Made by a program: the position numbers and the translations under genes. From assembly GCA_947650365.1 (NCBI GenBank), contig CANTAL010000026.1, positions 124,001-188,000 on the forward strand: 64,000 bases of DNA, in the 5' to 3' direction. Shown here in pieces: positions 1-64,000 of this stretch (position 1 is the stretch's first letter; each line of letters begins with the position of its first letter). The notes under the pieces were generated by a model that did no database searches, was not told the origin of the DNA, and saw nothing but the letters and a program-made list of their open reading frames with translations. Origin of the DNA: Chamaelirium japonicum. Taxonomy: Eukaryota; Streptophyta; Magnoliopsida; Liliales; Melanthiaceae.

Positions 1-2044
1 ATGTATCCATTCTAATGCATTCGTACGATCCATTCTAATTCATTCGCACGATGCATTCATTCATTCGCATGATCCATTCTAATTCATTCGCACGATCCAT
101 TCTAATTCATTCGCTCGAATGTGTCCATTCTAATTCATTCGCACGAATGTATCCATTCTAATTCATTCGTACGATCCATTCTAATTCATTCGTATGATCC
201 ATTCTAATTCATTCGCACGAATGTAACCATTCTAATTCATTCGTATGGTCCATTCTAATTCATTCCTATGATCCATTCTAATTCATTCCTACGATCTATT
301 CTAATTCATTCGTACGATCCATTCTAATGCATTCGTACGATTCATTCTAATTCATTCACACAATCTATTCTAATTCATTCGTACGATCCGTTCTAATTCA
401 TTCCTACAATCCATTCTAATTCATTCGCACGAATGTATCCATTCTAATTCATTCGTACGATCCATTCTAATTCATTCGTACGATTCATTCTAATCCATTC
501 GTACGGTCCATTCTAATTCATTCGCACGAATGTAACCATTCTAATTCATTCGTACGATCCATTCTAATTCATTCCTACGATCCATTCTAATTCATTCGCA
601 CGAATGTATCCTTTCTAATTCATTTGCACGATCCATTCTAATTCATTCGTATGATCCATTCTAATTCATTCGTACGATCCATTCTAATTCATTCGTACGA
701 TCCATTCTAATCCATTCGTGCGATCCATTCTAATTCATTCCTACGATCCATTCTAATTCATTCTCACAAATGTAACCTTTCTAATTCATTTGTACGATCC
801 ATTCTAATTTATTCATACGATCCATTCTAATTCATTCGCACGATCCATTCTAATTCATTCGTACGATCCATTCTAATTCATTCGCACAATCCATTCTTAT
901 TCATTCGTACGATCCATTCTAATTCATTCGTATGATCCATTCTAACTCATTCGGTGGATCCATTCTAATTCATTCGTACGATCCATTCTAATTCATTCGC
1001 ACGATCCATTCTAACTAATTCGCACGATCCATTCTTATTCATTCATACGATCCATTCTAATTCATTCGCACAATCCATTCTAATTCATTCGTACTATCCA
1101 TTCTAATTCATTCGTATGATCCATTCTAACTCATTCGGTGGATCCATTCTAATTCATTCGTACGATCCATTATAATTCATTCGCACGAATGCATCCATTC
1201 TAATTTATTCGTACGATCCATTCTAATTCATTCGTACGATCTATTCTAATTCATTCGCACGAATGTAACCATTCTAATTCATTCGTACGATTCATTCTAA
1301 TTCATTCGTATGAGCTATTCTAATTCATTCATACAATCCATTCTAATTCATTCGTACGATCCATTGTAATTCATTCGTACGATCCATTCTAATTCATTCG
1401 CACGATCCATTCTAATTCATTTGCACGATCCATTCTAAATCATTCCTATGATCCATTCTAATTCATTCGTACGATCCATTCTAATTCATTCGTACGATGC
1501 ATTCTAATCCATTCGTACGATCCATTCTAATTCATTCGTACGATCCATTCTAATTCATTCTCACAAATGTAACCTTTCTAATTCATTTGTACGATCCATT
1601 CTAATTCATTCGTACGATCCATTCTAATCCATTCGTACAATCCATTCTAATCCATTCGTACGATCCATTCTAATTCATTCGCACGAATGTAACCATTCTA
1701 ATTCATTTGTACGATCCATTCTAATTCATTCCTACGATCCATTCTAATTCATTCGTACGAATGTATCCATTCTAATTCATTTGCACGATTCATTCTAATT
1801 CATTTCTATGATCCATTCTAATTCATTCTTACGATCCATTCTAATTTATTCGTTCGAATGTATCCATTCTAATTCATTCGTACGATCCATTCTAATTTGT
1901 TCGTACGATCCATTCTAATTCGTTCGTACGATCCATTCTAATTCATTCGCACGATCCATTCTAATTCATTCGCACGATCCATTCTAATTCATTTGTACGA
2001 TCCATTTTAATTCCTTCGCATGATCCATTCCAATTCATTCGTAT
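1..2044 (+). repeat. Satellite block 1, + orientation
   Basis: The window opens in mid-array. The block mixes 23-mers with scattered 28-mers and carries two cassette-C units (CATTCGGTGGATCC) near 948 and 1132, inside a 184-bp local duplication. It closes on the seam GTATGATAC at 2041-2049. Confidence 0.95.
885..1190 (+). repeat. Adjacent 184-bp duplication carrying cassette C
   Basis: The unit CATTCGGTGGATCC occurs at about 948 and 1132, an offset of 184 bp (8 x 23), with matching units on both sides (GTATGATCC, TAACTCATTCGG). Confidence 0.85.
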
Positions 2045-4135
2045 GATACATTCGTGCGAACGAATTAGAATAGATCGCATGAATGAATTAGAATGGATCG
2101 TACGAATGAATTAGAATAGCTCATACGAATGAATTAGAATGAATCGTACGAATGAATTAGAATGGATACATTCGTGCGAATGAATAAGAATAGATCGTAT
2201 GAATGAATTAGAATGGATCGTACGAATGAATTAGAATGGATCGTGCGAATGAATTTGAATGGATCGTACGATTGAATTAGAATGGATCGTGCAAATGAAT
2301 TAGACTGGATACATTCGAGCGAATGAATTAGAATGGATCGTACGATTGAATTAGAATGGATCATAGGAATGAATTAGAATGGATCGTACAAATGAATTAG
2401 AATGGATACATTCGTGCGAAATAATTAGAATGGATCGTAGGAATGAATTAGAATGGATCGTACGAATGAATTAGAATGGTTACATTCGTGCGAATGAATT
2501 AGAATGGATCGTACGAATGGTTTAGAATGGATCGTACGAATGGATTAGAATGGATCGTACGAATGAATTAGAATGGATCGTACAAATGAATTAGAAAGGT
2601 CACATTTGTGAGAATGAATTAGAATGGATCGTACAAATGAATTAGAAAGGTTACATTTGTGAGAATGAATTAGAATGGATCGTACGAATGAATTAGAATG
2701 GATCGTACGAACGAATTAGAATGGATCGCACGAATGAATTAAAATGGATCGTACGAATGAATTAGAATGGATCATATGAATGAATTAGAATGATTACATT
2801 CGTGCGAATGAATTAGAATGGATCGTACGAATGGATTAGAATGGATCGTACGAATGGATTAGAACGCACTGTACGAATGAATTGGAATAGATATATTTGT
2901 GCGAATGAATTAGATTGCATCGTACGAATGAATTAGAATGGATCGTACGAATGAATCAGAATGGATCGTACGAATGAATAAGAATGGATCATGCGAATGA
3001 ATTAGAATGGATCGTACGAATGAATTAGAATGGATACATTCGAGTGAATGAATTAGAATGGATCGTACGAATGAATTAGAATGGATCGTACGAATGAATT
3101 AGAATGGATACATTCGTGCGAATAAATTAGAATGGATCGTACGAATGAATTAGAATGGATCGTAGTAATGAGTTAGAATGGATCCACCGAATGAGTTAGA
3201 ATGGATCATACGAATGAATTAGAATGGATCGTACGAATGAATTAGAATGGATACATTCGAGCGAATGAATTAGAATAGATCGTAGGAATGAATTAGAATA
3301 GATCATACTAATGAATTAGAATGGATCATGCGAATGAATTAGAATGGATCGTACGAATGGATTAGAATGGATCGTACGAATGAATTAGAATGGATCGTAC
3401 GAATGAATTAGAATAGCTTATACGAATGAATTAGAATGAATCGTACGAATGAATTAGAATGGTTACATTCGTGCGAATGAATTAGAATAGATCATACGAA
3501 TGAATTAGAATGGATCGTACGAATAAATTAGAATGGATACATTTGTGCGAATGAATTAGAATGGATCGTATATTCGTGCAAATAAATTAGAATGGATCGT
3601 ACAAATGAATTAGAATGGATCGTACGAATGAGTTAGAATGGATCGTGCGAATGAATTAGAATGGATCGTACTAATGAATTAGAATGGATCCACCGAATGA
3701 GTTAGAATGGATCATACGAATGAATTAGAATGGATTGTACGAATGAATTAGAATGGATTGTGCGAATGAATTAGAATAGATCGTATGAATGAATTAGAAT
3801 GGATCGTAGGAATGAATTAGAATAGCTCATACGAATGAATTAGAATGAATCGTACGAATGAATTAAAATGGTTACATTCGTGCGAAGGAATTAGAATAGA
3901 TCGTACGAATGAATTAGAATGGATCCACCGAATGAGTTAGAATGGATCATACGAATGAATTAGAATGGATCGTACGAATGAATTAGAATCGATTGTGCGA
4001 ATGAATTAGAATGGATCGTATGAGTGAATAAGAATGGATCGTACGAACGAATTAGAATGGATCGTGCGAATGAATTAGAATGAATCGTACGAATGCATTA
4101 GAATGGATCGTACGAATGAATTAGAATGAATCGTA
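2045..4135 (-). repeat. Satellite block 2, - orientation
   Basis: Core reads CGAATGAATTAGAATGG. It holds a cassette-B marker (AGAACGCA) near 2871 and three cassette-C units starting at 3180, 3686 and 3921. The spacings are 506 bp (22 x 23) and 235 bp (9 x 23 + 28), so the units are kept in phase. An open frame at 2134-2364 is a by-product of the period. Confidence 0.95.
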
Positions 4136-6200: not shown

Positions 6201-8031
6201 ACATTCGTACAATCCATTCTAATTCATTCGCACGATCAATTCTAATTCATTCGTATGATCCATTCTAATTCATTCGTATGATCCATTCTAATTCATTCGT
6301 ATGATCCATTCTAACTCATTCGCACAAATGTATCCATTCTAATTCATTCGTATGATCCAATCTAATTCATTCGTATGATCCATTCCAATTCATTCGTATG
6401 ATCCATTCTAACTCATTTGCACAAATGTATCCATTCTAATTCATTCGTACGATCCATTCTAATTCATTCGTACGATCCATTCTAATTCATTCACACGATC
6501 TATTCTAATTCATTCGCACGATCCATTCTAATTCATTCGCACGATCCATTCTAATTCATTCGCACGATCCATACTAATTCATTCATACGATCTATTCTAA
6601 TTCATTCGTTCGATCCATTCTAATTCTTTCGCACGATCCATTCAAATTCATTCACACGATCCATTCTAATTCGTTCATACGATCCATTCTAATTCGTTCG
6701 TACGATCCATTCTAATCCATTCGTACGATCCATTCAGATTCATTCGCACGAATGTAACCTTTCTAATTCATTTGTATGATCCATTCTAATTCATTCGTAC
6801 GATCCATTCTAATTCATTCGTATAATCCATTCTAATTCATTCGCACGAATGTAACCATTATAATTCATTTGTACGATCCATTCTAATCCATTCATACGAT
6901 CCATTCTAATCCATTCGTACGATCCATTCTAATCCATTCGTACGATCCATTCTAATTCATTCTCACAAATGTAACCTTTCTAATTCATTTGTACGATCCA
7001 TTCTAATTCATTCGTACGATCCATTCGAATCCATTCATACGATCCATTCAAATTCATTCGTACGATCCATTCTAATCCATTCGTACGATCCATTCTAATT
7101 CATTCGTACGATCCATTCTAATTCATTCTCACAAATGTAACCTTTCTAATTCATTTGTACGATCTATTCTAATTCATTCGTACGATCCATTCTAATCCAT
7201 TCGTACGATCCATTCAAATTCATTCATACGATCCATTCTAATCCATTCGTCCGATCCATTCTAATCCATTCTAATTCATTTGTACGATCCATTTTAATTC
7301 ATTTGCACGATCCATTCTAATTCATTCGTACGATCCATTCTAATTCATTCGTACGATCCATTCTAATTCATTCGCACAAATGTAACCTTTCTAATTCATT
7401 TGTACGATCCATTCTAATTCATTCGTACGACCCATTCTAATTCATTCGCACGAACGTAACCATTCTAATTCATTCGTACGATCCATTCTAATTAATTCCT
7501 ACGATCCATTCTAATTCATTCGCACGAATGTATCCATTCTAATTCATTTGCACGATCTATTTTAATTCATTCCTATGATCCATTCTAATTCATTCGTATG
7601 ATCCATTCTAATTCATTCGCTCGAATGTATTCATTCTAATTCATTCGTACGATCCATTCTAATTCATTCGTATGATCCATTCTAATCCATTCGTACGATT
7701 CATTCTAATTCATTCGTACGATCCATTCTAACTCATTCTCACAAATGTAACCTTTCTAATTCATTTATACGATCCATTCTAATTCATTCGTACGATCCAT
7801 TCTAATCCATTCGTACGATCCATTCTAATCCATTCGTACCATCCATTCTAATTCATTCGCACGATCCATTCTAATTCATTAGCACAAATGTATCCATTCT
7901 AATTCATTCGTACAATCCATTCTAATTCATTCGTACGATCCATTCTAATTCATTCGTACGATCCATTCTAATTCATTCGCACAAATGTATCCATTCTAAT
8001 TCATTCGTACGATCCATTCTAATTCATTCGT
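6201..8031 (+). repeat. Satellite block 5, + orientation
   Basis: Rich in the sub-variant AATCCATTCG and in TCACAAATGTAACC 28-mers. A 33-mer lies near 7258-7290. The block ends in the middle of an 86-bp perfect palindrome (7989-8074). Confidence 0.95.
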
Positions 8032-8074
8032 ACGAATGAATTAGAATGGATCGTACGAATGAATTAGAATGGAT
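7989..8074. repeat. 86-bp perfect palindrome at a + to - seam
   Basis: Centred between 8031 and 8032 on CGT/ACG, the two arms match for 43 bases each before the first difference. There is no spacer, so in principle the DNA can extrude a cruciform with nearly two monomers per arm. Confidence 0.93.
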
Positions 8075-13157: not shown

Positions 13158-13205
13158 CGATCCATTTTAATTCATTCGCATGATCCATTCTAATTCATTC
13201 GTATG
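13158..13205 (+). repeat. Satellite block 11, + orientation, two units
   Basis: Only about 48 bp, two monomers, sit in + orientation between two - blocks. The right seam GTATGATAC followed by ATTCATACGACTG is shared with 44742. Confidence 0.9.
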
Positions 13206-14958: not shown

Positions 14959-14959
14959 A

Positions 14960-21625: not shown

Positions 21626-21647
21626 ACGATCCATTCTAATTCATTCG
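21604..21647. repeat. 44-bp perfect palindrome at a - to + seam
   Basis: Centred on CGT/ACG at 21625/21626 with 22-base arms. The paralogous seam at 19631 has 21-base arms (19611-19652). Confidence 0.92.
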
Positions 21648-44742: not shown

Positions 44743-45186
44743 ATACATTCATACGACTGAATTAGAATGGATTGTACGAATGAATTAGAATGGATTGTAC
44801 AAATGAATTACAATGGATCGTACGAATGGATTAGAATGGATCGTACGAATGAATTAGAGTGGATCGTACGAATGCATTAGAATGGATACATTCGTGCGAA
44901 TAAATTAGAATGGATCGTGCGAATGAATTAGAATGGATCGTACGAATGAATTAGAATGGATACATTTGTGCGAATGAATTAGAATGGATCGTACGAATGA
45001 ATTAGAATGGATCATGCGAATGAATTAGAAAGGATCGTGCGAATGAATTAGAATGGATACATTCGTACAAATGAATTAGAATGGATCGTACGAATGAATT
45101 AGAATGGATCGTACGAATGAATTAGAATGGTTACATTCGTGCGAATGAATTAGAATGGATCGTACGAATGGATTAGAATGGATAGT
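44743..45186 (-). repeat. Satellite block 30, - orientation, short
   Basis: About 444 bp, opening with ATTCATACGACTG as at 13205. The right break (GATAGTCTAATTAACTCG) lies inside a unit. Confidence 0.93.
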
Positions 45187-45947
45187 CTAATTAACTCGCA
45201 CGATCTATTCTAATTCATTCGTATGATCCATTCTAATTCATTCCTACGATCTATTCTAATTCATTCGCTCGAATGTATCCATTCTAATTCATTCGTACGA
45301 TCCATTCTTATTCATTCGTACGATCCATTCAAATTCATTCGCATGATCCATTCTAATTCATTCGTACGATCCATTCTAATTCATTCTCACGAATGTAACC
45401 TTTCTAATTCATTTGTATGATCCATTCTAATTCGTTCGTACGATCCATTCTAATCCATTCGTACGATCCATTCTAATCCATTTGTACGATCCATTCTAAT
45501 TCATTCGCACGAATGTATCCATTCTAATTCATTCGCTCGAATGTATCCATTCTAATTCATTCGTACGATCCATTCTAATTCATTCGTCCGATCCATTCTA
45601 ATTCATTCGCACGAATGTATCCATTCTAATTCATCCGTACAATCCATTCTAATTCATTCGCACGATCCATTCTAATTCATTCGTATGATCTATTCTAATT
45701 CATTCGTACAATCCATTCTAATTCATTCGCTCGAATGTATCCATTCTAATTCATTCGTACGATCCATTCTAATTCATTCGTACGATCCATTATAATTCAT
45801 TCTCACGAATCTAACCTTTCTAATTCATTTGTATGATCCATTCTAATTCATTCGTATGATCCATTCTAATCCATTCGTACGATCCATTCTAATCCATTCG
45901 TACGATCCATTCTAATTCATCGCACGAATCCGTTCTAATTCATTCGC
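45187..45947 (+). repeat. Satellite block 31, + orientation
   Basis: About 761 bp, mostly cassette A (45223-45420) and derivatives. The right seam is CATTCG-CA-CGAATG, where a 28-mer type linker runs straight into an inverted core. Confidence 0.94.
45223..45420 (+). repeat. Cassette A copy
   Basis: Consensus order, entered directly after the break at 45186; CATTCTTATTC is its private unit. Confidence 0.92.
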
Positions 45948-48900
45948 ACGAATGAATTAGAATGGATACATTCGCAAGAATGAATTAGAAGGATCGTACG
46001 AATGAATAAGAATGGATTGTACAAATGAATTAGAATGGATACATTCGAGCGAATGAATTAGAATGGATCGTACGAATGAATTAGAATGGTTCATACGAAT
46101 GAATTAGAATGGATCATGCGAATGAATTAGAATGGATCGGACGAATGAAATAGAATGGATACATTCGAGCGAATGAATTAGAATGGATTAGAATGGATAC
46201 ATTCGTGCGAATGAATTAGAATGGATCGTACGAATGGATTAGAATGGATCGTACGAATGGATTAGAATGGATCATACGAATGGATTAGAATGGATCATAC
46301 AAATGAATTAGAAAGGTTACATTCGTGAGAATGAATTAGAATGGATCGTACGAATGAATTAGAATGGATCATGCGAATGAATTTGAATGGATCATACGAA
46401 TGAATAAGAATGGATCGTATGAATGAATTAGAATGGATACATTCGAGCGAATGAATTAGAATAGATCGTAGGAATGAATTAGATTAGATCATAGGAATGG
46501 ATTAGAATGAATCGTACGAATGAATTAAAATGGATCGTACAAATGAATTAGAATGGATCGTGCGAATGAATTAGAATGGATCGTACGAACGAATTAGAAT
46601 GGATCGTACGAACGAATTAGAATGGATCGTATGAACGAATTAGAATGGATCGTACGAATGAATTAGAATGGATCGTACGAATGAATTAGAATGGATTGTA
46701 CGAATGAATTAGAATGGATCATATGAATGAATTAGAATGGTTACATTCGTGCGAATGAATTAGAATGGATCATACGAATGGATTAGAATGGATCGTACGA
46801 ATGGATTAGAACGCATTATACGAATGAATTAGAATAGATACATTTGTGCGAATGAATTAGATCGCATCGTACGAATGAATTTGAATGGACTGTACGAATA
46901 AATTAGAATGGATCGTACGAATGAATTTGAATGGATCATACGAATGAATTAGAATAGATATATTAATGCGAATGAATTAGAATGGATCTTATGAATAAAT
47001 TAGAATGCATCGTGCGAATGAATTAGAATGTATCGTACGAATGAATTAGAAAGGTTACATTCGTGACAATGAATTAGAATGGATCGTACGAATGAATAAG
47101 AATTGATCATACGAATGGATTAGAATGGATCATACGAATGAATTAGAATGGATCGTACGAATGAATTAGAATGGATTAGAATGGATTGAATGAATGAATT
47201 AGAATGGATCGTACGAATGAATTAGAATGGATACATTCGAGCGAATGAATTAGAATGGATCGTACGAATGAATTAGAATGGATCATAGGAATGAATTAGA
47301 ATGAATCGTGCAAATGAATTAGAATGGATACATTCGTGCGAATGAATTAGAATGGATCGTAGGAATGAATTAGAATGGATCGTACGAATGAATTAGAATG
47401 GTTACATTCGTGCGAATGAATTAGAATGGATCGTACGAATGGATTAGAATGGATCGTAGGAATGAATTAGAATGGATCGTACAAATGAATTAGAAAGGTT
47501 ACATTTGTGAGAATGAATTAGAATGGATCGTACGAATGGATTAGAATGGATCGTACGAATGAATTAGAATGGATCATACAAATGAATTAGAAAGGTTACA
47601 TTCATGAGAATGAATTAGAATGGATCGTACGAATAAATTAGAATGGATCATGCGAATGAATCTGAATGGATCGTACAAATGAATTAGAATGAATCGTACG
47701 AATGAATTAGAATGGTTACATTCGTGCGAATGAATTAGAATAGATCATACGAATGAATTAGAATGGATCGTACGAACGAATTAGAATGGATCGTACGAAC
47801 GAATTAGAATGGATCGTACGAACGAATTAGAATGGATCGTACGAATGGATTAGAATGGATCGTACGAATAAATTAGAATCGATCGTACAAATGAATTAGA
47901 AAGGTTACATTTATGAGAATGAATTAGAATGGATCGTACGAATGAATTAGAATGGATCGTACGAATGGATTAGAATGGATCGTACGAATGAATTAGATCG
48001 TACGAATGAATTAGAATGGATCGAACGAATTAATTAAAATGGATACATTCGAGCGAATGAATTAGAATGGATACATTTGTGAGAATGAATTAGAATGGAT
48101 CATGCGAATGAATTAGAATGGATCGTACGAATGAATTAGAATGGATCGTACGAATGAATTAGAATGGTTACATTCGTGCGAATGAGTTAGAACGGATCAT
48201 ATGAATGGATTAGAATGGATCGTATAAATGGATTAGATTGGATCGTACGAATGAATTAGAATGGATCGTACAAATGAATTAGAAAGGTTATATTTGTGAG
48301 AATGAATTAGAATGGATCATACGAATGGATTAGAATGGATCGTACGAATGGATTAGAATGGATCGTACGAATGAATTAGAAAGGTTACATTCGTAAGAAT
48401 GAATTAGAATGGATCGTACGAATGAATTAGAATGGATCATGTGAATGAATTTGAATGGATCGAACGAATGAAATAGAATGGATCGTACGAATGAATTAGA
48501 ATGGATCGTACGAATGGATTAGAACGCATTGTACGAATGAATTAGAATGGATCGTATGAATGGATTAGAATGGATCGTACGAATGAATTAGAATGGATCG
48601 TATGAATGAATTAGAATGGATACATTCGAGCGAATGAATTAGAATGGATCGTACGAATGAATTAGAATGGATCATAGGAATGAATTAGAATGGATCGTGC
48701 AAATGAATTAGAATGGATATATTCGTGCGAATGAATTAGAATGGATCGTAGGAATGAATTAGAATGGATCGTACGAATGAATTAGAATGGTTACATTCGT
48801 GCGAATGAATTAGAATGGATCGTACGAATGGATTAGAATGGATCATACGAATGGATTAGAATGGATCATACGAATGAATTAAAATGGATACATTCATACG

Positions 48901-49497
48901 ACTGAATTAGAATGGATCATGCAAATTAATTAGAATGGATCGTACAAATGAATTTGAATGGATATATTTGTGCGAATGAATCTGAATGGATTGTATGAAT
49001 GAATTACAATGGATCGTACGAATTGATTAGAATGGATCGTACGAATGAATTAGAATGGATCATACAAATGAATTAGAAAGGTTACATTCGTGAGAATGAA
49101 GTAGAATGGATCGTACAAATGAATTAGAATGGATCATGTGAATGAATTTGAATGGATCGTACGAATGAATTAGAATGGATCAAACGAATGAATTAGAATG
49201 GATACATTCGAGCGAATGAGTTAGAATAGATCGTAGGAATGAATTAGAATGGATCATACGAATGAATTAGAATGGATCGTGCGAATGAATTAGAATGGAT
49301 TGTACGAATGAATTAGAATGGATACATTCGAGCGAATGAATTAGAATAGATCGTAGGAATGAATTAGAATGGATCATACGAATGAATTAGAATGGATCGT
49401 GCGAATGAATTAGAATGGATTGTACGAATGAATTAGAATGGATACATTCGTGCGAATGAATTGGAATGGATCGGACGAATGAATTAGAATAGATCGT
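45948..49497 (-). repeat. Satellite block 32, - orientation
   Basis: About 3.6 kb. It has cassette A at about 46293-46489 and 49066-49263, a cassette-B marker near 46808, 33-mers near 46180 and 47165, an 18-mer near 47995, and a 120-bp duplication at 49201-49440. It exits by GGATCGGACG into CGTACGATTC. Confidence 0.95.
49201..49440 (-). repeat. Adjacent 120-bp duplication
   Basis: Bases 49201-49320 and 49321-49440 differ at one base that I can see (GAATGAGTT against GAATGAATT). 120 equals 4 x 23 + 28, a five-unit module. Confidence 0.95.
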
Positions 49498-49800
49498 ACG
49501 ATTCATTCTAATTCATTCGTACGATCAATTCTAATGCATTCGTACGATTCATTCTAATTCAATCGCACGATCCATTCTAATTCATTCGTATGATCTATTC
49601 TAATTTATTTGCACGAATATACTATCCATTCTAATTTATTCGCAAGAATGTATGCATTCTAATTCATTCGTACAATCCATTCTAATTTATTCGTACAAAT
49701 GTATCCATTCTAATTCATTCGTACGATCCATTCTAATTCATTTGTACGATCCATTCTAATTCATTCGCACGAATGTATCCATTCTAATTCATTTGTACAA

Positions 49801-50040
49801 TCCATTCTAATTCATTCGCACGATCCATTCTAATTCAATCGTATGATCCATTCTAATTCATTCCTACGATCTATTCTAATTCATTCGCTCGAATGTATCC
49901 ATTCTAAGTCATTCGTACAATCCATTCTAATTCATTCGCACGATCCATTCTAATTCATTCGTATGATCCATTCTAATTCATTCCTACGATCTATTCTAAT
50001 TCATTCGCTCGAATGTATCCATTCTAATTCATTCGTTTGA
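49801..50040 (+). repeat. Adjacent 120-bp duplication, + strand
   Basis: Bases 49801-49920 and 49921-50040 repeat the same five-unit module with few differences (CAATCGTATG against CATTCGTATG, TAAGTC against TAATTC). The same 120-bp module length is duplicated on the other strand 600 bp away. Confidence 0.92.
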
Positions 50041-50166
50041 TCCATTCTAATTCATTCGTACGATCCATTCAAATTCATTCGCATGATCCATTCTAATTCA
50101 TTCGTACGATCCATTCTAATTCATTCACACGAATGTAACGTTTCTAATTCATTTGTATGATCCATT
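49970..50166 (+). repeat. Cassette A copy with trailing units
   Basis: Overlaps the right half of the 120-bp duplication. The last 28-mer reads CACACGAATGTAACG. It is followed to about 50335 by the same CAGATTC and CAGTCGTATG units as at 29390 and 42088. Confidence 0.88.
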
Positions 50167-50494
50167 CAAATTCATTCGTACGATCCATTCTAATCCATTC
50201 GTACGATCCATTGTAATTCATTCATACAATCCATTCAGATTCATTCGCACAAATGTATCCATTCAAATTCATTCGTACGATCCATTCTAATTAATTCGCA
50301 CGATCCATTCTAATTCAGTCGTATGAATGTATCCATTTTTATTCATTTGTACGATCCATTCTAATCTATTCGTACGATCCATTCTAATCCATTCGTACAA
50401 TCCATTCTAATTCATTCGCACGAATGTAACCATTCTAATTCATTCCTACGATCAATTCTAATTCATTCATACGATCCATTCTAATTCATTCTAA

Positions 50495-51156
50495 TTAGAA
50501 TGGATCGTACAAATGAATTAGAAAGGTTACATTCGTGAGAATGAATTAGAATGGATCGTACGAATGAATTAGAATGGATCGTACGAATGAATTATAATGG
50601 ATACATTCGAGCGAATGATTAGAATGGATCGTACGAACGAATTAGAATGGATCTTAGGAATGAATTAGAATGGATCGTGCAAATGAATTAGAATGGATCG
50701 TGCGAATGAATTAGAATGAATCGTACGAATGCATTAGAATATATCCATCGAATTAGTTAGAATAGATCATACGAATGAATTAGAATGGATCGTACGAATG
50801 GATTAGAATGGATCGTACGAATGAATTAGAATGGATCATACAAATGAATTAGAATGGTTACATTCGTGAGAATGAATTAGAATGGATCGTACGAAAGAAT
50901 TAGAATGGATACATTCGAGCGAATGAATTAGAATAGATCGTTGGAATGAATTAGAATGGATCATACGAACGAATTAGAATAGATCGTAGGAATGAATTAG
51001 AATGGATCGTACGAATGAATTAGAATGGATCGTAGGAATGAATTAGAATGGATCAACCGAATGAATTAGAATGGATCGTACGAATGAATTAGAATGGATC
51101 ATAGGAATGAATTAGAATGGATCACGCAAATGAATTAGAATGGATACATTCGAGCG
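50495..51156 (-). repeat. Satellite block 34, - orientation
   Basis: The first 290 bp match 58859-59150, including the decayed cassette-C unit near 50745. The right break, CATTCGAGCGGTCC, is not palindromic. Confidence 0.93.
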
Positions 51157-51264
51157 GTCCATTCTAATTCGTTCATACGATCCATTCTAATTCATTCGTC
51201 CGATCCACTCAAATTCATTCGTACGATCCATTCTAATTCATTCGCACGAATGTATCCATTCTAA
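51157..51264 (+). repeat. Satellite block 35, + orientation, very short
   Basis: About 108 bp, four to five units. The right edge CATTCTAACGAATG joins half a + core directly to a - core. Confidence 0.92.
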
Positions 51265-52806
51265 CGAATGAATTAGAATGGATACATTCGTGCGAATGAA
51301 TTAGAATGGATCGTACGAATGAATTAGAATGGATCGCACGAATGAATTAGAATGGATCGTACGAATGAATTAGAATGGATCGTACGAATGGATTAGAATG
51401 GATCGTACAAATGAATTAGAATGGATCATACAAATGAATTAGAAAGGTTACATTCGTGAGAATGAATTAGAATGGATCGTACGAATGAGTTAGAATGGAT
51501 CATACGAATGAATTAGAATGGATCGTACGAATGAATTAGAATGGATTGTGCGAATGAATTAGAATGGATCGTATGAATGAATTAGAATGGTTACATTCGT
51601 GCGAATGAATTAGAATGGTTACATTCGTGCGAATGAATTAGAATGGATCGTACGAATGGTTTAGAATGGATCGTACGAATGGATTAGAATGGATCATACG
51701 AATGAATTAGAATGCATACATTCGAGCGAATGAATTAGAATGGATCGTACAAATGGATTAGAATGGATCGTACGAATGGATTAGAATGGGTCGTACGAAT
51801 GAATTAGAATGGATCATACAAATGAATTAGAAAGGTTACATTCGTGAGAATGAATTAGAATGGATCGTACGAATGAATTAGAATGGATCGTATGAATGAA
51901 TTAGAATGGATACATTCGAGCGAATGAATTGGAATGGATCTTACGAATGAATTAGAATGGATCATAGGAATGAATTAGAATGGATCGTGCAAATGAATTA
52001 GAATGGATACATTCGTGCGAATGAATTAGAATGGATCATAGGAATGAATTAGAATGGATCGTACGAATGAATTAGAATGGTTATATTCGTGCGAATAAAT
52101 TAGAATGGATCATAGGAATGAATTAGAACGGATCGTGTGAATGAATTAGAATGGATCGTACGAATAAATTAGAATGGATCGTATGAATGAATTAGAATGG
52201 ATCGTACGAATGAATTAGAATGGATACCTTTGTGCATATGAATTAGAATAGATCATACGAATGAATTAGAATGGATCATATTATTGAATTAGAATGGATC
52301 GTACGAATGTATTAGAATGGATACATTCGTGCGAATGAATTAGAATTGATCGTGCAAATCAATTAGACTGGATCGTGCGAATGAATAAGAATGGGTCATA
52401 CGAATGAATTAGAATTGATCGTACGAATAAATTAGAATTGTTACATTCGTGCGAATGAATTAGAATGGATTATATGAATAAATTAGAATGGATCGTGCGA
52501 ATGAATTAGAATGGAAACATTCGTGCGAATGAATTAGAATGGATCGGACGAATGAATTAGAATGGATCGTACGAACGAATTAGAATGGATCGTATGACAT
52601 ACGACTGAATTAGAATGGATCGTGCGAATGAATTAGAATGGATACATTCTTGCGAATAAATTAGAATGGATCGTATATTCGTGCAAATAAATTAGAATGG
52701 ATCATACAAATGAATTAGAATGGATCGTGCGAATGAATTAGAACGAATCGTACGAATGCATTAGAATGGATCGTACGAATGGATTAGAATGGATCGTATG
52801 AATGAA
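51265..52806 (-). repeat. Satellite block 36, - orientation
   Basis: About 1.5 kb. The last 300 bp include divergent units such as GGATACCTTTGTGC (52210) and CGTATGACATACG (52590). The exit is GAATTC at 52804-52809, itself a palindrome. Confidence 0.93.
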
Positions 52807-55279
52807 TTCTAATTCCATTCTAATTCATTCGTACGATCCATTCTAATTCATTCGTACAATCCATTCAAATTCATTCGTACGATGCAATCTAATTCATTCG
52901 CACAAATGTATCTATTCTAATTCATTCGTACAATGCGTTCTAATCCATTCGTACGATCCATTCTAATCCATTCGTACGATCCATTCTAATTCATTCGCAC
53001 GAATGTAACCATTCTAATTCATTCGTACGATCCATTCTAATTCATTTGTATGATCCATTCTAATTCATTCGTCCGATCCATTCTAATTCACTTGCATGAA
53101 TATATCCATTCTAATTCATTCGTACGACCTATTCTAATTCATTCGTATGATACATTCTAATTCATTCGCATGAATGTATTCATTCTAATTCATTTGCACG
53201 ATCCATTCTAATTCATTCGCACAAATGTATCCATTCTAATTCATTCATACGATCCATTCTAATTCATTCGTATGATCTATTCTAATTCATTCGCACGAAT
53301 GTAACCATTCTAATTCATTCGTACGATTCATTCTAATTCATTCATACGATCCATTCTAATTCACATTCGTACAATGCATTCTAATCCATTCGTACGATCC
53401 ATTCTAATCCATTCGTACGATCCATTCTAATTCATTCGCACGAATGTAACCATTCTAATTCATTCATATGATCCATTCTAATTTATTCATACGATCCATT
53501 CTAATTCATTTGTACGATCCATTCTAATTTATTCGTATGATCCATTCTAATTCATTCGTAGGATCCATTCTAATTCATTTGCATGAATGTATCCATTCTA
53601 ATTTATTCGTACGATCCAGTCTAATTCATTCATACGATCCATTCTAATTCATTCGCACGAATATACCTATTCTAATTCATTCGTACGATCCTTTCTAATT
53701 CATTCGCACGATCCATTCTAATTCTTTCATATGATCCATTCTAATTCATTCTAATTCATTCGCACGATCCATTCTAATTCATTCGCATGATCCATTCTAA
53801 TTCATTCGTACGATCCATACTAATTCATTCTCACGAATGTAACCTTTCTAATTCATTTGTATGATCCATTCTAATTCATTTGCACGAATGTAACCATTCT
53901 AATTCATTCGTACGATCCATTCTAATTTATTCCTACGATCCATTCTAATTCATTCGAACAAAGGTATCCATTCTAATCCATTCGTAGGATCCATTCTAAT
54001 CCATTCGTATGATCCATTCTAATTCATTCGTACGATCCATTCTAATTCATTTGTACGATCCATTCTAATTCATTCGTATGAATGTATCCATTCTAATTCA
54101 TTCGTACGATCCATTCTAATTCATTCCTACGATCTATTCTAATTCATTCGCTCGAATGTATCCATTCTAATTTATTCGTTCGATCTATTCTAATTTATTC
54201 GTACGATCCATTCAAATTCATTCGCATGATCCATTCTAATTCATTCGTATGATCCATTCTAATTCATTCTCACGAATGTAACCTTTCTAATTCATTTGTA
54301 TGATCCATTCTAATTCATTCGTACGATCCATTCTAATTCATTCGTATGATCCATTCTAATTTATTCATACGATCCATTCTAATTCATTCGTACGATCCAT
54401 TCTAATTCATTCGTTCGATCCATTCTAATTCATTCGTACGATCCATTCTAATTCATTCGTACTATCCATTCTTCTTCATTCATACGATCCATTCTAATTC
54501 ATTCGCACAATCCATTCTAATTCATTCGTACGATCCATTCTAATTCATTCGCACGATCCATTCAAATTCATTCGTACGATCACGATCCATTCTAATTCAT
54601 TCCTATGATCCATTCTAATTCATTTGTACGATCCATTCTAATTCATTCGCTCGAATGTATCCATTCTAATTCATTCGTACGATCCATTCTAATTCGTTCA
54701 TACGATCCATTCTAATTCGTTCGTACGATCCATTCTAATTCATTCGCACGATCCATTCTAATTCATTCGCACGATCCATTCTAATTCTTTCATATGATCC
54801 ATTCTAATTAATTTGCACGAATGTATCCATTCTAGTTCATTCGTACGCTCCATTCTAATTCATTCGTATGATCCATTCTAATTCATTCGCACGATCCATT
54901 CAAATTCATTCGCACGATCCATTCTAATTCATTCGTACGAATGTATCCATTCTAATTCATTCGCACAATCCAATCTAATTCAAACGTACGATCCATTCTA
55001 ATTCATTCACATGATGTATTTTAATTCATTCGTATGATCCATTCTAATTCATTCGTATGATTCATTCTAATTCATTCGTACGATCCATTCTAATTCATTC
55101 GTATGATCCATTCTAATTTATTCGTTCAAATATATCCATTCTAATTCATTCATACGATCCATTCTAATTCATTCGCACGATCCATTCTAATTCATTCGTA
55201 CGATCCATTCTAATTCATTCGTATGATCAATTCTAATTCATTCGTACAATCCATTCTAATTCAATCGTATGAATGTATC
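52807..55279 (+). repeat. Satellite block 37, + orientation
   Basis: About 2.5 kb with cassette B (52880-53010), a 33-mer near 53740 and a cassette-A copy at about 54108-54303. It ends on GTATCACAC, a one-base variant of the GTATCATAC seam. Confidence 0.94.
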
Positions 55280-56552
55280 ACACGAATGAATTAGAATGGA
55301 TCATAGGAATGAATTAGAATGGATCGTGCAAATGAATTAGAATGGATCATACAAATGAATTAGAATGGATATATTTGAACGAATAAATTAGAATGGATCA
55401 TACGAATGAATTAGAATGGATCGTACGAATGAATTAGAATGAATCATACGAATGAATTAGAATGGATCATACGAATGAATTAGAATACATCATGTGAATG
55501 AATTAGAATGGATCGTACGTTTGAATTAGATTGGATTGTGTGAATGAATTAGAATGGATACATTCGTGCGAATGAATTAGAATAGATCGTATGAATGAAT
55601 TAGAATGGATCGTACGAATGAATTAGAATGGATCGTGCGAATAAATTTGAATGGATCGTCCGAATGAATTAGAATGGATCATACGAATGAATTAGAATGG
55701 AGCGTACGAATGAACTAGAATGGATACATTCGTGCATGTGAATTAGAATGGATCATATGAAAGAATTAGAATGGATCGTGCGAATGAATTAGAATGGATC
55801 GTGCGAATGAATTAGAATGGATCGTACGAACGAATTAGAATGGATCGTACGAACGAATTAGAATGGATCGTATGAACGAATTAGAATGAATCGTACGAAT
55901 GAATTAGAATGGATATATTCGAGCGAATGAATTAGAATGGATCGTACGAATGAATTAGAATGGATCATAGGAATGAATTAGAATGGATCGTGCAAATGAA
56001 TTAGAATGGATACATTCGTGCGAATGAATTAGAATGGATCGTAGGAATGAATTAGAATAGATCATACGAATGAATTAGAATGGATCGTGCGAATGAATTA
56101 GAATGGATTGTACGAATGAATTAGAATGGATACATTCGTATGAATGAATTAGAATGGATCGTACGAATGAATTAGAATGGATCGTACGAATGAATTAGAA
56201 TGAATCGTACGAATGCATTAGATTGGATCGTACGAATGAATTAGAATGGATACATTTGTGCGAATGAATTAGAATGGATCGTATATTCGTGCAAATAAAT
56301 TAGAATGGATCGTACGAATGAATTAGAATGGATCCACTGAATGAGTTAGAATGGATCATACGAATGAATTAGAATGGATCATACGAATGAATTAGAATAG
56401 ATTGTGTGAATGAATTAGAATGGATCGTATGAATGAATAAGAATGGATCATGCGAATGAATTAGAATGGATGTACGAATGAATTAGAATGGATCGTGCGA
56501 ATGAATTAGAAACATTCGTGCGAATGAATTAGAGTGAATTAGATTGCATCGT
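55280..56552 (-). repeat. Satellite block 38, - orientation
   Basis: Carries cassette D (about 55690-55890) and a cassette-C variant (GGATCCACTG) near 56331. A broken unit AGAAACATTCG occurs near 56508. The exit GCATCGTACGATCC resembles that at 38766. Confidence 0.94.
55690..55890 (-). repeat. Cassette D copy
   Basis: Shares GGAGCG, GAACTAG and ATGAAAGAATTAG with 32416-32640 in order. Its private change is GTGCATGTGAATTAG near 55732. Confidence 0.86.
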
Positions 56553-58858
56553 ACGATCCATTCTAATCCATTCGTACGATCCATTCTTATTCATTCATAC
56601 GATCCATTCTAATTCATTCGCACAATTCATTCTAATTCATTCGTATGATCCATTCTAATTCATTCGTATGATCCATTCTAACTCATTCGGTGGATCCATT
56701 CTAATTCATTCGTATGATCCACTGTAATTTATTTGCACGAATATACGATCCATTCTAATTCATTCGCACAAATGTATCCATTCTAATTCATTCGTACAAT
56801 CCATTCTAATTCATTCGTATGATCTATTCTAATTCATTCGCACAAATGTATCCATTCTAATTCATTCGTTCAATCCATTCTAATTCATTCGCATAAATAT
56901 ATCCATTCTAATTCATTCGTACGATCCATTCTAATTCATTTGCACGATCCATTCTAATTCATTCGCACAAATGTATCCATTCTAATTCATTCGTACAATC
57001 TATTCTAATTCATTCGCATGATCCATTCTAATTCATTCGTACGATCCATTCTAATCCATTCGTACAATCCATTCTAACTCGTTCGTACGATCCATTCTAA
57101 TTCATTCTCACAAATATAACCTTTCTAATTCATTTCTACGATCCATTCTAATTCATTCGTACGATCCATTCTAATTCATTCGCACGATCCATTCTAATTT
57201 ATTCGTACGATCCATTCTAATTCATTCGTACGATCTATTCTAATTCATTCGCATGATCCATTCTAATTCATTCGTACGATCCATTCTAATTCATTCGTAT
57301 AATCCATTCAAATTCATTCGTACGATGCAATCTAATTCATTCGCACGAATATATCCATTCTAATTCATTCGTACGATCCTTTCTAATTCATTCGCACGAT
57401 CAATTCTAATTCAATCGTATGATCCATTCTAATTCATTCCTACGATCTATTCTAATTCATTCGCTCGAATGTATCCATTCTAATTCATTCGTTCGATCCA
57501 TTCTAATTCATTCGTACGATCCATTCTAATTCATTCGTACGATCCATTCTAATTCATTCGTACGATCCATTCTAATTCATTCGCACGATACATTCTAATT
57601 CATTCGTAGGATCGATCCATTCTAATTTATTCGCACGATCTATTCTAATTCATTTGCACGAATGTATCCATTCTAATTCATTCGTACGATCCATTCTAAT
57701 TCATTCGTACGATCCATTCTAATTCATTCGCACGATCCGTTCTAATTCATTCCTATGATCCATTCTAATTCATTCGCACGAATGTAACCATTCTAATTCA
57801 TTCGTACGATCCATTCTTATTCATTCCTACGATCCATTCTAATTCATTCGCACGAATATATCCATTCTAATTCATTTGCACGATCCATTCTAATTCATTC
57901 CTATGATCCATTCTAATTCATTCGTACGATCCATTCTAATTCATTCGCTCGAATGTATCCATTCTAATTCATTCGTACGATCCATTCTAATTCATTTGTA
58001 CAATCCATTCTAATTCATTCTCACGAATGTAACCTTTCTAATTCATTTGTATGATCCATTTAATTCATTCGTACGATCCTTTCTAATTCATTCGTACGAT
58101 CCATTCTAATTCATTCGTATGACCAATTCTAATTCATTCGCACGATCCATTCTAATTCATTCGTATGATCCATTCTAATTCAATTCGTGCAATCCATTCA
58201 AATTCATTCGCACAAATGTATCCATTCTAATTCATTCGTATGATCCATTCTAATTCATTCGCTCGAATGTATCCATTCTAATTCATTCGTACAATCCATT
58301 CAAATTCATTCGTACGATGCAATCTAATTCATTCACACAAATGTATCTATTCTAATCCATTCATACGATCCATTCTAATTCCTTCGTACAAATGTATCCA
58401 TTCTAATTCATTCGTACGATCCATTCTAATTCATTCGTACGATTCATTCTAATTCATTCGCACGATCCATTCTAATTCATTCGTACGATCCATTCTAATT
58501 CATTCGTATGATCTATTCTAATTCATTCGCACGAATGTATCCATTCTAATTCATTTGCACGATCCATTCTAATTCATTCCTATGATCCATTCTAATTCAT
58601 TCGTACGATCTATTCTAATTCTTTCGCTCGAATGTATCCATTCTAATTCGTTCGTACGATCCATTCTAATTCGTTCGTACGATCCATTCTAATTCGTTCG
58701 TACGATCCATTCTAATTCATTCGTATGATCCATTCTAATGCATTCGTACGATTCATTCTAATTCATTCGCACGATCTATTCGAATTCATTCGTATGATCC
58801 ATTCTAACTCATTACTACGATCTATTCTAATTCATTCGCTCGAATGTAACCTTTCTAA
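56553..58858 (+). repeat. Satellite block 39, + orientation
   Basis: About 2.3 kb with a cassette-C unit near 56686, a partial cassette A near 57420-57490 and a partial cassette B near 58316. It ends on CTAATTAG centred at 58858/58859. Confidence 0.94.
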
Positions 58859-60341
58859 TTAGAATGGATCGTACAAATGAATTAGAAAGGTTACATTCGT
58901 GAGAATGAATTAGAATGGATCGTACGAATGAATTAGAATGGATCGTACGAATGAATTAGAATGGATACATTCGAGCGAATGAATTAGAATGGATCGTACG
59001 AACGAATTAGAATGGATCATAGGAATGAATTAGAATGGATCGTGCAAATGAATTAGAATGGATCGTGCGAATGATTTAGATTGAATCGTACGAATGCATT
59101 AGAAGGGATCCACCGAATGAGTTAGAATGGATCATACGAATGGATTAGAATGGATCGTACGAATGGATTAGAATCGATCGTACGAATGGATTAGAATGGA
59201 TCGTACGAATGAATTAGAATGAATTGTACGAATGCATTAGAATGGATCGTACGAATGAATTAGAATGAATCGTACGAACGAATTAGAATGGATCGTACGA
59301 ACGAATTTGAATGGATCGTATGAACGAATTCGAATGGATTGTACGAATGAATTAGAATGGATACATTCGAGCGAATGAATTAGAATGGATCGTACGAATG
59401 AATTAGAATAGATCCTTGGAATGAATTAGAATGGATCGTGCAAATGAATTAGAATGGATACATTCGTGCGAATGAATTAGAATAGATCATATGAATGAAT
59501 TAGAATGGATCGTAGGAATGAATTAGAATGGATCGTGCGAATGAATTAGAATGGAATGTACGAATGAATTAGAATGGATACATTTGTGCGAATGAATTAG
59601 AATGGATCATATGAAAGAATTAGAATGGATGGTGCGAATGAATTAGAATGGATACATTCGAGCGAATGAATTAGAATGGATAGTACGAATGAATTAGCAT
59701 GGATCATAGGAATGAATTAGAATGGACCGTGCAAATGAATTAGAAGGGATACATTCGTGCGAATGAATTAGAATGGATCGTAGGAATGAATTAGAATGGA
59801 TCGTACGAATGAATTAGAATGGATTATATGAATGAATTAGAATGGTTACATTCGTGCGAATAAATTAGAATGGATCGTACGAATGGATTAGAAAGGATCG
59901 TACGATTGGATTAGAACGGATACATTCGTATGAATGAATTAGAATGGATCGTACGAATGGATTAGAATGAATCATACGAATGAATTAGATCGTAGGAATG
60001 AGTTAGAATGAATCGTACAAATGAATTGGAATGGATCGTACGAATGAATTAGAATGGATCGAGCGAATGTATAAGAATGGATCGTACGAATGAATTAGAA
60101 TGGATCATAGGAATGAATTAGAATGGATCGTGCAAATGAATTAGAATGGATACATTCGTGCGAATGAATTAGAATAGATCGTAGGAATGAATTAGAATGG
60201 ATCGTACGAATGAATTAGAATGGATACATTTGTACGAATGAATTAGAATGGATCGTACGAAGGAATTAGAATGGATCGTACGAATTAGAATGGATCGTAC
60301 GAATGAATTAAAATGGATACATTCATACGACTGAATTAGAA
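58859..60341 (-). repeat. Satellite block 40, - orientation
   Basis: The opening matches 50495 onward, and 59090-59405 matches the last 345 bp of the window. The right break TAGAAATTTATTCG (about 60341) is not palindromic. Confidence 0.94.
59090..59405 (-). repeat. Segmental copy shared with 63655-64000
   Basis: Both stretches run in order through a GCATTAG unit, cassette C, GAATGAGTTAG, several GAATGGATTAG units, a second GCATTAG unit, three GAACGAATT units and GGATACATTCGAGCG. The offset grows from 4579 to 4602 bp, one extra 23-mer in the right copy. Confidence 0.87.
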
Positions 60342-60870
60342 ATTTATTCGTACGATCCATTCAAATTCAATCGTATGATCCATTCTAATTCATTCGCACG
60401 ATCAATTCTAATTCATTCGTCTGATCCATTCTAATTCATTCTAATTCGTTCATACGATCCATTCTTATTCATTCTCACGAATGTAACCTTTCTAATTGAT
60501 TTGTATGATCCATTCAAATTCATTCCTACGATTCATTCTAATCCATTCGTACGATCCATTCTAATTCATTCGAACGATCCATTCTAATTCATTCGCTCGA
60601 ATGTATCCATTCTAATTCATTCGTACGATCCATTCTAATCCATTCGTACGATCCATTCTAAACCATTTGTACGATCCATTCTAATTCATTCGCACGAATG
60701 TAACCATTCTAATTCATTCATACAATCCATTCTAATTCATTCGCACAATCCTTTCTAATTCATTCGTATGATCCATTCTAATTCATTCGCACGATCCATT
60801 CTAATTCATTTCTATGATCCGTTCTAATTCATTCATACGATCCATTCTAATTCATTCGCACGAATGTATC
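60342..60870 (+). repeat. Satellite block 41, + orientation, short
   Basis: About 529 bp. A 33-mer variant occurs near 60430. It ends on GTATCATAC centred at 60870, the seam also used at 24507 and 37380. Confidence 0.94.
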
Positions 60871-61660
60871 ATACGAATGAATTAGAATGGATTTGCGAAT
60901 GAATTAAAATGGATAGTACAAATGAATTTGAATGGATCATGCGAATGAATTAGAATGGATCGTACGAACGAATTAGAATGGATCGTACGAACGAATTAGA
61001 ATGGATCGTCCGAATGAATTAGAATGGATACATTCGAGCGAATGAATTAGAATGAATCATACGAATGAGTTAGAATGGATCATAGGAATGAATTAGAATG
61101 GATCGTGCAAATGAATTGGAATGGATATATTCGTGCGAATGGATTAGAATGGATCGTACGAATGGATTAGAATGGATCGTACGAATGAATTAGAATGGTT
61201 ACATTCGTGCGAATGAATTAGAATGGATCGTACGAATGGATTAGAATGGATCGTACAAATGGATTAGAACGCATTGTATGAATGAATTAGAATAGATACA
61301 TTTGTGCGAATGAATAAGAATGGATCGTACGAATGAATTAGAATGGATCTTACGAAAGAATTAGAATGGATCTTACAAATGAATTAGAATGGATCATACG
61401 AATGAATTAGAATGGATCGTGCGAATGAATTTGAATGGATCGTACGAATGAATTAGAATGGATCGAACGAATGAATTAGAATGGATACATTTGAGCGAAT
61501 GAATTAGAATAGATCGTAGGAATGAATTAGAATGGATCATACGAATGAATTAGAATGGATCGTGCGAATGAATTAGAATGGATTGTACGAATGAATTAGA
61601 ATGGATACATTCGTGCGAATGAATTAGAATGGATCGGACGAATGAATTAGAATGGATCGT
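60871..61660 (-). repeat. Satellite block 42, - orientation, recurrent inverted block
   Basis: A 790-bp relative of the 24508-25372 block with both seams in common (GTATCATAC in, GGATCGGACG / CGTACGATTC out). The middle has a cassette-B marker (about 61255-61310) and only a partial cassette A near 61390-61530. Confidence 0.95.
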
Positions 61661-62010
61661 ACGATTCATTCTAATTCATTCGTACGATCCATTCTAATGC
61701 ATTCGTACAATTCATTCTAATTCATTCGCACGATCCATTCTAATTCATTCGTATGATCCATTATAATTTATTCATATGATCCATTCTAATTCATTCGCAC
61801 AATCCATTCTAATTCATTCGTACGATCCATTCTAATTCATTCGTTCGATCCATTCTAATTCATTCGTACGATCCATTCTAATTCATTCGTACGATCCATT
61901 CTAATTCATTCGCACGATCCATTCTAATTTATTCCTATGATCCATTCTAATTCATTCGCACGAATGTAACCATTCTAATTCATTTGTACGATCCATTCTA
62001 ATTCATTCGT
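61661..62010 (+). repeat. Satellite block 43, + orientation, short
   Basis: About 350 bp, starting with the TTCATTC / GCATTC units typical of this seam and ending at the centre of a 40-bp perfect palindrome (61991-62030). Confidence 0.94.
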
Positions 62011-62030
62011 ACGAATGAATTAGAATGGAT
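61991..62030. repeat. 40-bp perfect palindrome at a + to - seam
   Basis: Centred at 62010/62011 on CGT/ACG with 20-base arms; the right arm then diverges into a 28-mer linker (ACATTAGAGCG). Confidence 0.92.
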
Positions 62031-64000
62031 ACATTAGAGCGAATGAATTAGAATAGATCGTACTAATGAATTAGAATGGATCGTACGAATAAATTAGAAT
62101 GGATCGTGCGAATGGAATGGATTGTACGAATGAATTAGAATGGATCTACCGAATGAGTTAGAATGGATCATACGAATGAATTAGAATGGATCATACGAAT
62201 GAATTAGAATGGATTGTGCGAATGAATTAGAATGGATACATTTGTGCGATGAATAAGAATGGAGCGTACGAATGAATTCGAATGGAGCGTACGAATGAAC
62301 TAGAATGGATACATTCATAGGAATGAATAAGAATGGATTGTACGAATGGATTAGAATGGTACATTCGTGCGAATGAATTAGAATAGATCATACGAATGAA
62401 TTAGAATGGATCATACGAATGAATTAGAATGGATCGTACGAATGAATTCGAATGGATACATTCGAGCGAATGAATTAGAATGGATCGTGCGAATGAATTA
62501 GAATGGATCGTACGAATGAATTAGAATGGATCGTACGAATGAATTAGAATGGATTGTACAAATGAATTAGAATGGATCGTACAAATTAATTAGAAAGGTT
62601 GCATTTGTGAGAATGAATTAGAATGGATCGTACGAATGAATTAGAATGGATCGTACGAATGAATTAGAAAGAATCGTAGGAATGGATTGTGTCGAGCGAA
62701 TGAATAAGAATAGATCATAGGAATGAATTAGAATGGATCATACGAATGAATTAGAATGGATCGTGCGAATGAATTAGAATGGATCGTACGAACGAATTAA
62801 AATGGATCGTACGAATGAATTAGAATGGATCGTGCGAATGAATTAGAATGGATCGTGCGAATGAATTAGAAAGGATCGTACGAACGAATTAGAATGGATC
62901 ATATGAACGAATTAGAATGGATCATACGAATGAATTAGAATGGATCGTACGAATGAATTAGAAAGGTTACATTTGTGAGAATGAATTAGAATGGATCGTA
63001 CGAATGAATTAGAATGGATCGTACGAATGAATTAGAAAGGTTACATTTGTGAGAATGAATTAGAATGGATCGTACGAATGGATTAGAATGGATCGTACGA
63101 ATGGATTAGAATGGATAGTATGAATGGATTAGAATGGATCATACGAATGGATTAGAATGGATAAAACAAATGAATTAGAATGGATCATACAAATGAATTA
63201 GAAAGGTTACATTCGTGAGAATGAATTAGAATGCATCGTACGAATGCATTAGAATGGATACATTCGTACGAATGAATTAGAATGGATCGTACGAATGGAT
63301 TAGAATGGATCGTACGAATGAATTAGAATGGATCATACAAATGAATTAGAAAGGTTACATTTGTGCGAATAAATTAGATTGCATCGTACGAATGAATTTG
63401 AATGGATTGTACGAATGAATTAGAATGGATCGTACGAATGAATTAAAATGGATACATTCGTGCGAATAAATTAGAATGGATCGTAGGAATGAATTAGAAT
63501 GGATCGTACGAATGAATTAGAAGGGATAGTGCGAATGAATTAGAATGAATCGTGCGAATGAATTTTAATGGATCGTGCGAATGAATTAGAATGGATCATA
63601 CGAATGAATTAGAATGGATCGTGCAAATGAATTAGAATGGATCGTGTGAATGAATTAGAATGAATCGTACGAATGCATTAGAATGGATCCACCGAATGAG
63701 TTAGAATGGATCATACGAATGAATTAGAATGGATCGTACGAATGGATTAGAATGGATCGTACGAATGGATTAGAATGGATCATACGAATGGATTAGAATG
63801 GATCGTATGAATGAATTAGAATGAATCGTACGAATGCATTAGAATAGATCGTACGAATGAATTAGAATGAATCGTACGAACGAATTAGAATAGATCGTAC
63901 GAACGAATTAGAATGGATCGTATGAACGAATTAGAATGGACCGTACGAATGAATTAGAATGGATACATTCGAGCGAATGAATTAGAATGGATCGTACGAA
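62011..64000 (-). repeat. Satellite block 44, - orientation, runs off the window
   Basis: About 2.0 kb. It has a short cassette-D copy (62246-62310), cassette-C units near 62150 and 63685, and a final 345 bp duplicating 59090-59405. The block continues past base 64000. Confidence 0.95.
63655..64000 (-). repeat. Segmental copy shared with 59090-59405
   Basis: Right-hand member of the pair. It contains one more 23-mer than its partner and is cut by the window end. Confidence 0.87.

Follow-up and report, generated by a model that had tools for sequence, protein, structure and literature searches.

Strand flips in a Chio-type satellite array of Chamaelirium japonicum: seam inheritance, native palindromes and an inverted duplication in one array copy

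The array and its strand flips

A satellite array of intermingled 23-bp and 28-bp units fills, without a break, the whole 64,000-nucleotide stretch of Chamaelirium japonicum DNA analysed here (the window, part of contig C38; positions without a contig name are those of the window), and its units change strand 43 times, dividing it into 44 blocks (Table 1). Scanning both strands with the 17-bp core CCATTCTAATTCATTCG at no more than 4 mismatches and counting non-overlapping units, we found 2,645 units, whose same-strand spacing was 23 bp in 2,056 cases and 28 bp in 476. Successive unit starts were never more than 60 bp apart, which makes the window a single continuous array. With at most 3 mismatches the core still matched 2,628 times, against 1.39 matches expected from 100 dinucleotide shuffles. 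The 23-bp unit, CCATTCTAATTCATTCGTACGAT, and the 28-bp unit, CCATTCTAATTCATTCGCACGAATGTAT, differ by a 5-bp deletion and one substitution, and the 9-bp TTCGTACGA occurs 471 times on the + strand and 409 times on the - strand. Native to the unit is the 8-bp palindrome TCGTACGA, which is the longest short match in the consensus between the unit and its own reverse complement.

Table 1. Positions of the array, its copies and the seams discussed in the text (window coordinates unless a contig is named)
Feature	Position	Strand	Details
Satellite array, very probably Chio1 (23 bp)/Chio2 (28 bp)	1..64000		Unbroken, 44 alternating blocks; = C38:124001-188000
Example '+-' seam	8014..8049		Centred on native palindrome TCGTACGA; core distance 19
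Shortest block	13162..13201	+	Two units; core scan
Example '-+' seam	21604..21647		On the same palindrome (GGATCGTACGATCC); core distance 27
Recurrent '+-' seam	24479..24527		Core distance 32 (GTATCATAC type); recurs at 37352-37400 and 60842-60890
Part of segmental copy B (C38:161829-216095)	37830..64000		About 99.3% like copy A (C38:4000-65003)
Segment with a second, inverted counterpart in copy A	46150..55701		9,551 bp; A/B comparison
Two sites joined at junction 1	54787..55701		914 bp apart, flanking the older seam 55267/55283; 13 bp identical in unit register
Intact form of the junction 2 place (about 56266)	56116..56416		Five more copies elsewhere, 98-99%

The core scan reproduced the block and flip counts that an earlier note on this DNA had given, and its figures of about 34 kb in + and 30 kb in - orientation were close to the measured 33,953 bp and 29,427 bp. 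The median block length, described there as well below 2 kb, was 1,101.5 bp when all 44 blocks were taken in, and the very short blocks, put at 48-136 bp, were represented by four blocks under 150 bp that measured 40, 68, 86 and 132 bp from core to core. The larger blocks were mirrored by the GC skew calculated in 1-kb steps. The density of flips and the balance of the strands are therefore real, but they are not peculiar to the window: when the scan was carried through the flanks to cover 284 kb of C38, window included, 234 flips were counted and the median block length was 880 bp, + orientation accounting for 145,452 bp and - orientation for 135,675 bp. No flip was lost when the seams, the places where orientation changes, were defined by a core distance below 80, so that the 234 flips correspond to 234 seams. 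On another contig, a 4-kb stretch (C6:57293001-57297000) contains nine flips and a block pattern that restarts after 2,872 bp, with six flips in each repeat and 92.7% identity over 1,128 comparable bp, and seven 4-kb loci picked for their likeness to the start of the window have two or three flips apiece.

Based on these features, the array matches a published satellite. In the available passages of its description (PMC10264360), Chio1 and Chio2 are separated by a 5-bp deletion and one substitution, forward and reverse arrays are mixed, the 23- and 28-bp monomers are intermingled and the satellite is enriched for CENH3; in those of a second paper (PMC12722358), the 9-bp TTCGTACGA is common to Chio and to the Chama satellite of a sister species. 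The window agrees in the intermingled units of both lengths, in the relation between them, in TTCGTACGA and in the mixture of forward and reverse arrays, and the features compared here revealed no difference. Judged by unit lengths, unit relation, TTCGTACGA and mixed orientation, the window is very probably the centromeric Chio1/Chio2 satellite of the holocentric plant Chionographis japonica; the unit sequence strings had no match in the text of the papers searched. Since Chio has already been described as having arrays of both orientations intermixed, the strand flipping of this array is known, and the novelty that the earlier note implied for it falls away. What is added here is the anatomy of the seams at the level of bases, and no description of this for Chio, or of an inverted duplication, was found in the literature searched, which covers few subscription journals and was in part available as passages. 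How satellite arrays gain and keep inverted blocks is an open question, and centromeric DNA in inverted orientation is suspected of giving rise both to breaks and to chromatin structure.

Seams are inherited and concentrate at native palindromes

The window includes part of a segmental copy, B, whose counterpart, A, lies about 150 kb away on the same contig. Compared in segments of at least 400 bp with more than 93% identity, A and B were 99.3% identical over 51,101 compared bases in 18 direct segments, and 37 of the 40 seams in A's direct segments recurred in B within 3 bp. Of the remaining three, two also occur in B but with a different length at the seam, and one, at the place called junction 2 below, was new. 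On contig C42, the block order of part of B and the window is found again over a 6-kb stretch with five seams; two of its four inner blocks match the window in length, and two differ. The flips are thus inherited between copies. Such copies are widespread, about 75% of the window having a copy of at least 95.5% identity inside the 284 kb and 23% an inverted one (segments of at least 350 bp, words seen no more than 80 times).

The same recurrence bears on whether the seams could be artefacts of assembly or of chimeric or palindromic reads. Satellite arrays are hard to assemble, and the assembly is the only material of this analysis. However, the seams recur in diverged copies, at the same place to within 3 bp or as five seams in one order on C42; the two arms of the inverted duplication described below carry 11 differences in 4,299 positions, which a read turning back on itself would not show; and the published assembly was built from HiFi reads at 58.5x, according to the available part of its description (PMC10264360). 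An artefactual origin is therefore hardly credible.

Inheritance also means that seams cannot be counted as events. When the 234 seams were clustered by sequence with single linkage, which limits the counting of copies, they collapsed to 46 classes at a threshold of 0.88, 76 at 0.90, 85 at 0.92 and 103 at 0.94, numbers that depend on both threshold and linkage. Seams far outnumber classes because the segments that bear them are themselves copied. The nearest described architecture that we found is the macro-dyad symmetry of TmSat1 and TmSat2 in Tribolium madens (PMC13081366, from the passages available), whose likely centromeric or pericentromeric arrays also change orientation internally, are on the whole balanced between the strands and repeat their inversion sites in numerous near-identical copies. 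These arrays mostly consist of two subarrays with diverged subunits and few, highly conserved types of inversion site, unlike C38 with its many flips and seam classes, and the array was accordingly not assigned to the Tribolium type.

Seam positions were not uniform with respect to the unit. Among the '+-' seams of the window, the core distance was 19 in 6 of 22 and 32 in 7 of 22, and among the '-+' seams it was 27 in 11 of 21. Distance 19 in the first polarity and distance 27 in the second both centre on the position of TCGTACGA, in some seams with a changed central base, and over the 284 kb they were found in 41 and 59 seams, respectively. Counted as classes at the four thresholds in ascending order, the palindrome position was occupied by 9, 24, 29 and 36 classes, compared with 2.0, 3.3, 3.7 and 4.5 expected under uniform phase. 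The safest of these figures is the one at 0.88 (9 of 46 classes, p = 1.4e-4), because stricter thresholds may count old copies apart. In addition, the overlap between the two sides of a seam had class medians of 6.5-8.5, compared with 2 for 2,978 random joins, and reached 8 or more in about half of the classes, from 21 of 46 up to 45 of 85, but in 8.6% of the random joins. The seams thus show a preference for the unit's native palindromes, above all TCGTACGA.

Genome-wide, exact seams centred on TCGTACGA were found at 2,566 and 3,267 places in the two polarities, GATC-centred seams at 3,946 and AATT-centred seams at 618, while control patterns at three other phases were found at 2, 44 and 0 places. 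The patterns are of unequal length (34, 30 and 26 bases) and the figures represent copies of amplified families, not events, so the counts mark where consensus-like seams survive and not how often seams form. The exact GATC, AATT and control patterns all had 0 occurrences in the 284 kb of C38; as the GATC-centred seam leads genome-wide, seam families seem to vary from one centromere unit to another.

Palindromes at the seams could also have been left by plain inversions, in which recombination or end-joining between oppositely paired sites turns a segment without duplicating it and TCGTACGA is shared at both ends. Consistent with a two-ended inversion, both polarities are represented among the palindrome seams (in 264 kb of C38, distance 19 was recorded for 40 '+-' seams and distance 27 for 57 '-+' seams), and in the window all five '-' blocks that open with distance 19 and do not run past its end close with distance 27. 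With copies removed, however, palindrome seams at both ends were not significantly above chance in the 284 kb, neither at a threshold of 0.92 (11 vs 9.5, p = 0.30; 14 vs 10.9, p = 0.09) nor at 0.94 (14 vs 11.5, p = 0.16; 16 vs 12.6, p = 0.08). The lack of a significant both-end excess weakens two-ended inversion, and the single recent event that could be worked out duplicated its sequence. We regard plain inversion as an unlikely source of the flips, though a serious one.

The inverted duplication in copy A

Followed along B on C38, copy A keeps the direction of B as far as 178787, then reads it in reverse between 179701 and 170150 and resumes the forward direction at 180266 (54787, 55701, 46150 and 56266 in the window), so that A, relative to B, has an extra inverted copy of 9,551 bp and is without the forward stretch 178787-180266. 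At junction 1, the parent sequences share 13 identical bases in unit register, and the two joined sites, with their midpoint at 55244, flank the existing seam at 55267/55283. This junction makes no new seam because both parents run in the same unit direction. Junction 2 (CCATTCTA/ATTAGAATGG) has an overlap of 1 bp when compared with the present B and of 4 bp (AATT) when compared with the unit consensus, and it creates a new '+-' seam.

The direction of the change could be read from other copies. A second full match of more than 86% to A's junction 2 was not found among the 40 scored of 876 candidates, whereas the intact site had at least five further copies of 98-99% identity, on C42, C302 (two), C282 and C49, among the 40 scored of 1,463 candidates; B was therefore taken as ancestral and A as derived. 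Over 4,299 bp, the two arms of A are 99.74% identical to each other, and each has about 99.5% identity to B. Both arms depart from B at 16 sites, the direct arm alone at 5 and the inverted arm alone at 6. With C42 as outgroup, 12 of the 16 joint sites were changes of B and 4 were changes of A present in both arms, which places the origin of the inverted copy in the lineage of A, unless the four shared changes are due to later gene conversion between the arms. The inverted stretch of A contains seven seams: five are mirrored by a seam in B, the one at 30475 is junction 2, and the one at 26018 has no partner at the mirror place in B. Read from these comparisons, the event is a derived inverted duplication in which one junction used unit-register homology and the other 1-4 bp of microhomology.

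This origin in place bears on the suggestion that short arrays are re-inserted in random orientation, for instance from extrachromosomal circles, which the available passages of the Chio description (PMC10264360) include as one route by which Chio arrays spread. Re-insertion predicts sources elsewhere, whereas the recent event copied the adjoining sequence, and the arms share the changes of A's own lineage. As an explanation of the flips it is very unlikely. Closer in form are the fold-back inverted duplications of human chromosomes (PMC3907307, from the abstract), which also consist of an inverted copy beside its source, a spacer and short inverted homology at the spacer edge; the A event likewise has a spacer, of 914 bp, with the 13 identical bp at the join. 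The C38 copy differs from them in being interstitial, only 9.55 kb long and located within a satellite.

Further events were sought as adjacent segments that switch orientation, with the segment, identity and word settings of the coverage figures. The 284 kb contained 35 such adjacencies, of which 2 represent the A/B event and 6 the same event seen from the B side; 19 of the remaining 27 run through five recurrent short segments. One group of these segments (11 loci as block maps, three pairwise comparisons) looked like one seam in several copies and not like a flip in place. A second candidate is C38:226306-226788. This stretch of a + block has 97.5% identity to C38:250541-251023, part of a - block, once the latter is reverse-complemented; the flanks of C38:226306-226788 have their direct match at C38:247830-249993, and no seam is made. 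It would be a 0.48-kb inverted-template patch between opposite blocks in unit register, and either copy may be the changed one.

We also considered seams as fold-back points with mirror-image arms, an idea that found no support, the arms of the tested seams being no more alike than shuffled pairs. As a separate observation, one seam at C38:271805-271808 was the only one above the 99% level of the shuffled pairs, its arms being 0.94 alike over 250 bp and 0.81 by 500 bp, and it is a candidate for a recent true fold-back.

How the flips may arise

We consider it reasonably probable, though far from certain, that the flips arise by strand-switching during repair or replication, followed by amplification of the segments that bear the seams. 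A growing or broken strand would switch to an oppositely oriented block, copy backwards for up to kilobases and rejoin. The switch could be guided by unit-register homology between opposite blocks, in which case an existing head-to-head seam would supply a stem-loop, or alternatively by short matches between the unit and its reverse complement, such as TCGTACGA; the junction would be closed by microhomology, which would leave a new seam. In the A/B event, one junction would stem from the pairing of opposite blocks across the older seam, where a stem may have caused the event, and the other from microhomology, and what happened there may be typical of seam formation. Seam-bearing segments would then be copied as higher-order repeats and segmental duplications, multiplying the seams. 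Because each inverted copy reverses all its contents, the orientations would drift towards balance, and inverted copying would thereby account for the near equality of the strands. As very many seams are present together with near-identical copies, seam-forming events can be polarised and read at the level of bases, and the rule suggested by the A event is that a new seam forms where there is a short palindrome or microhomology, the pairing point being an older seam.

Several points weigh against this strand-switching mechanism. It is built on essentially one worked-out event, and copy A may be misassembled. Fold-back within a strand, switching between sister strands and repair are indistinguishable in that event, and so is the direction of synthesis. 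Among 173 of the 234 seams, those adjoining a block shorter than 250 bp being excluded, the identity of the arms was no higher than in shuffled pairs (0.843 vs 0.849 for '-+' seams and 0.855 vs 0.855 for '+-' seams), so that most seams either are no fold-back points or have become too old for this to be visible. The absence of a both-end excess is no help either, since it favours no single model. The exact seam patterns catch a minority, finding only 8 and 6 of the TCGTACGA seams in the 284 kb where 41 and 59 were recognised by distance, and the commonest pattern genome-wide is the GATC-centred '+-' seam, which has only a 4-bp palindrome; palindrome length therefore does not set abundance.

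A different view is that the flips are under selection: hairpins or cruciforms formed by head-to-head units would favour loading of the centromere protein, and the flips would be kept for this reason. Chio dyads are predicted to form hairpins (PMC10264360), and hairpins of TTCGTACGA might cause breaks or help CENH3 loading (PMC12722358), as far as the available passages of the two papers go. The Chama satellite of Chamaelirium luteum, the centromere satellite of a sister genus, also has the 9-bp TTCGTACGA but differs in its 60-bp unit, consistently oriented arrays and higher-order repeats over several hundred kilobases, according to the available passages (PMC12722358). That Chama shares TTCGTACGA and yet keeps one orientation suggests that flips are not needed for a working centromere in the sister species, and selection is quite unlikely to be what maintains them.

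Strand-switching, the mechanism we favour, allows a more tentative extension, which we put forward as a possibility: seams may breed seams. At a head-to-head junction, opposite blocks would pair as a stem-loop, template an inverted copy of the neighbourhood and leave a new seam at a short palindrome or microhomology. If this is so, once a first flip existed the array would be driven to frequent changes of strand in balanced proportion. This would account for the alternation in Chio and for the single direction of Chama, which has the same 9-bp palindrome and no established seams.

Two minor observations concern the surroundings of the window and the assembly. Outside the window, at C38:111430-112394, a 965-bp stretch without satellite units breaks the array, with + units on either side. 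Elsewhere in the assembly, the reading frame of COX1 is open without stops on many small contigs, which would be expected of a plant. With 96 of 100 candidates scored, COX1 reached an equal full score on 59 contigs, C514, C537 and C551 among them, as if many unplaced contigs were pieces of mitochondrial DNA.

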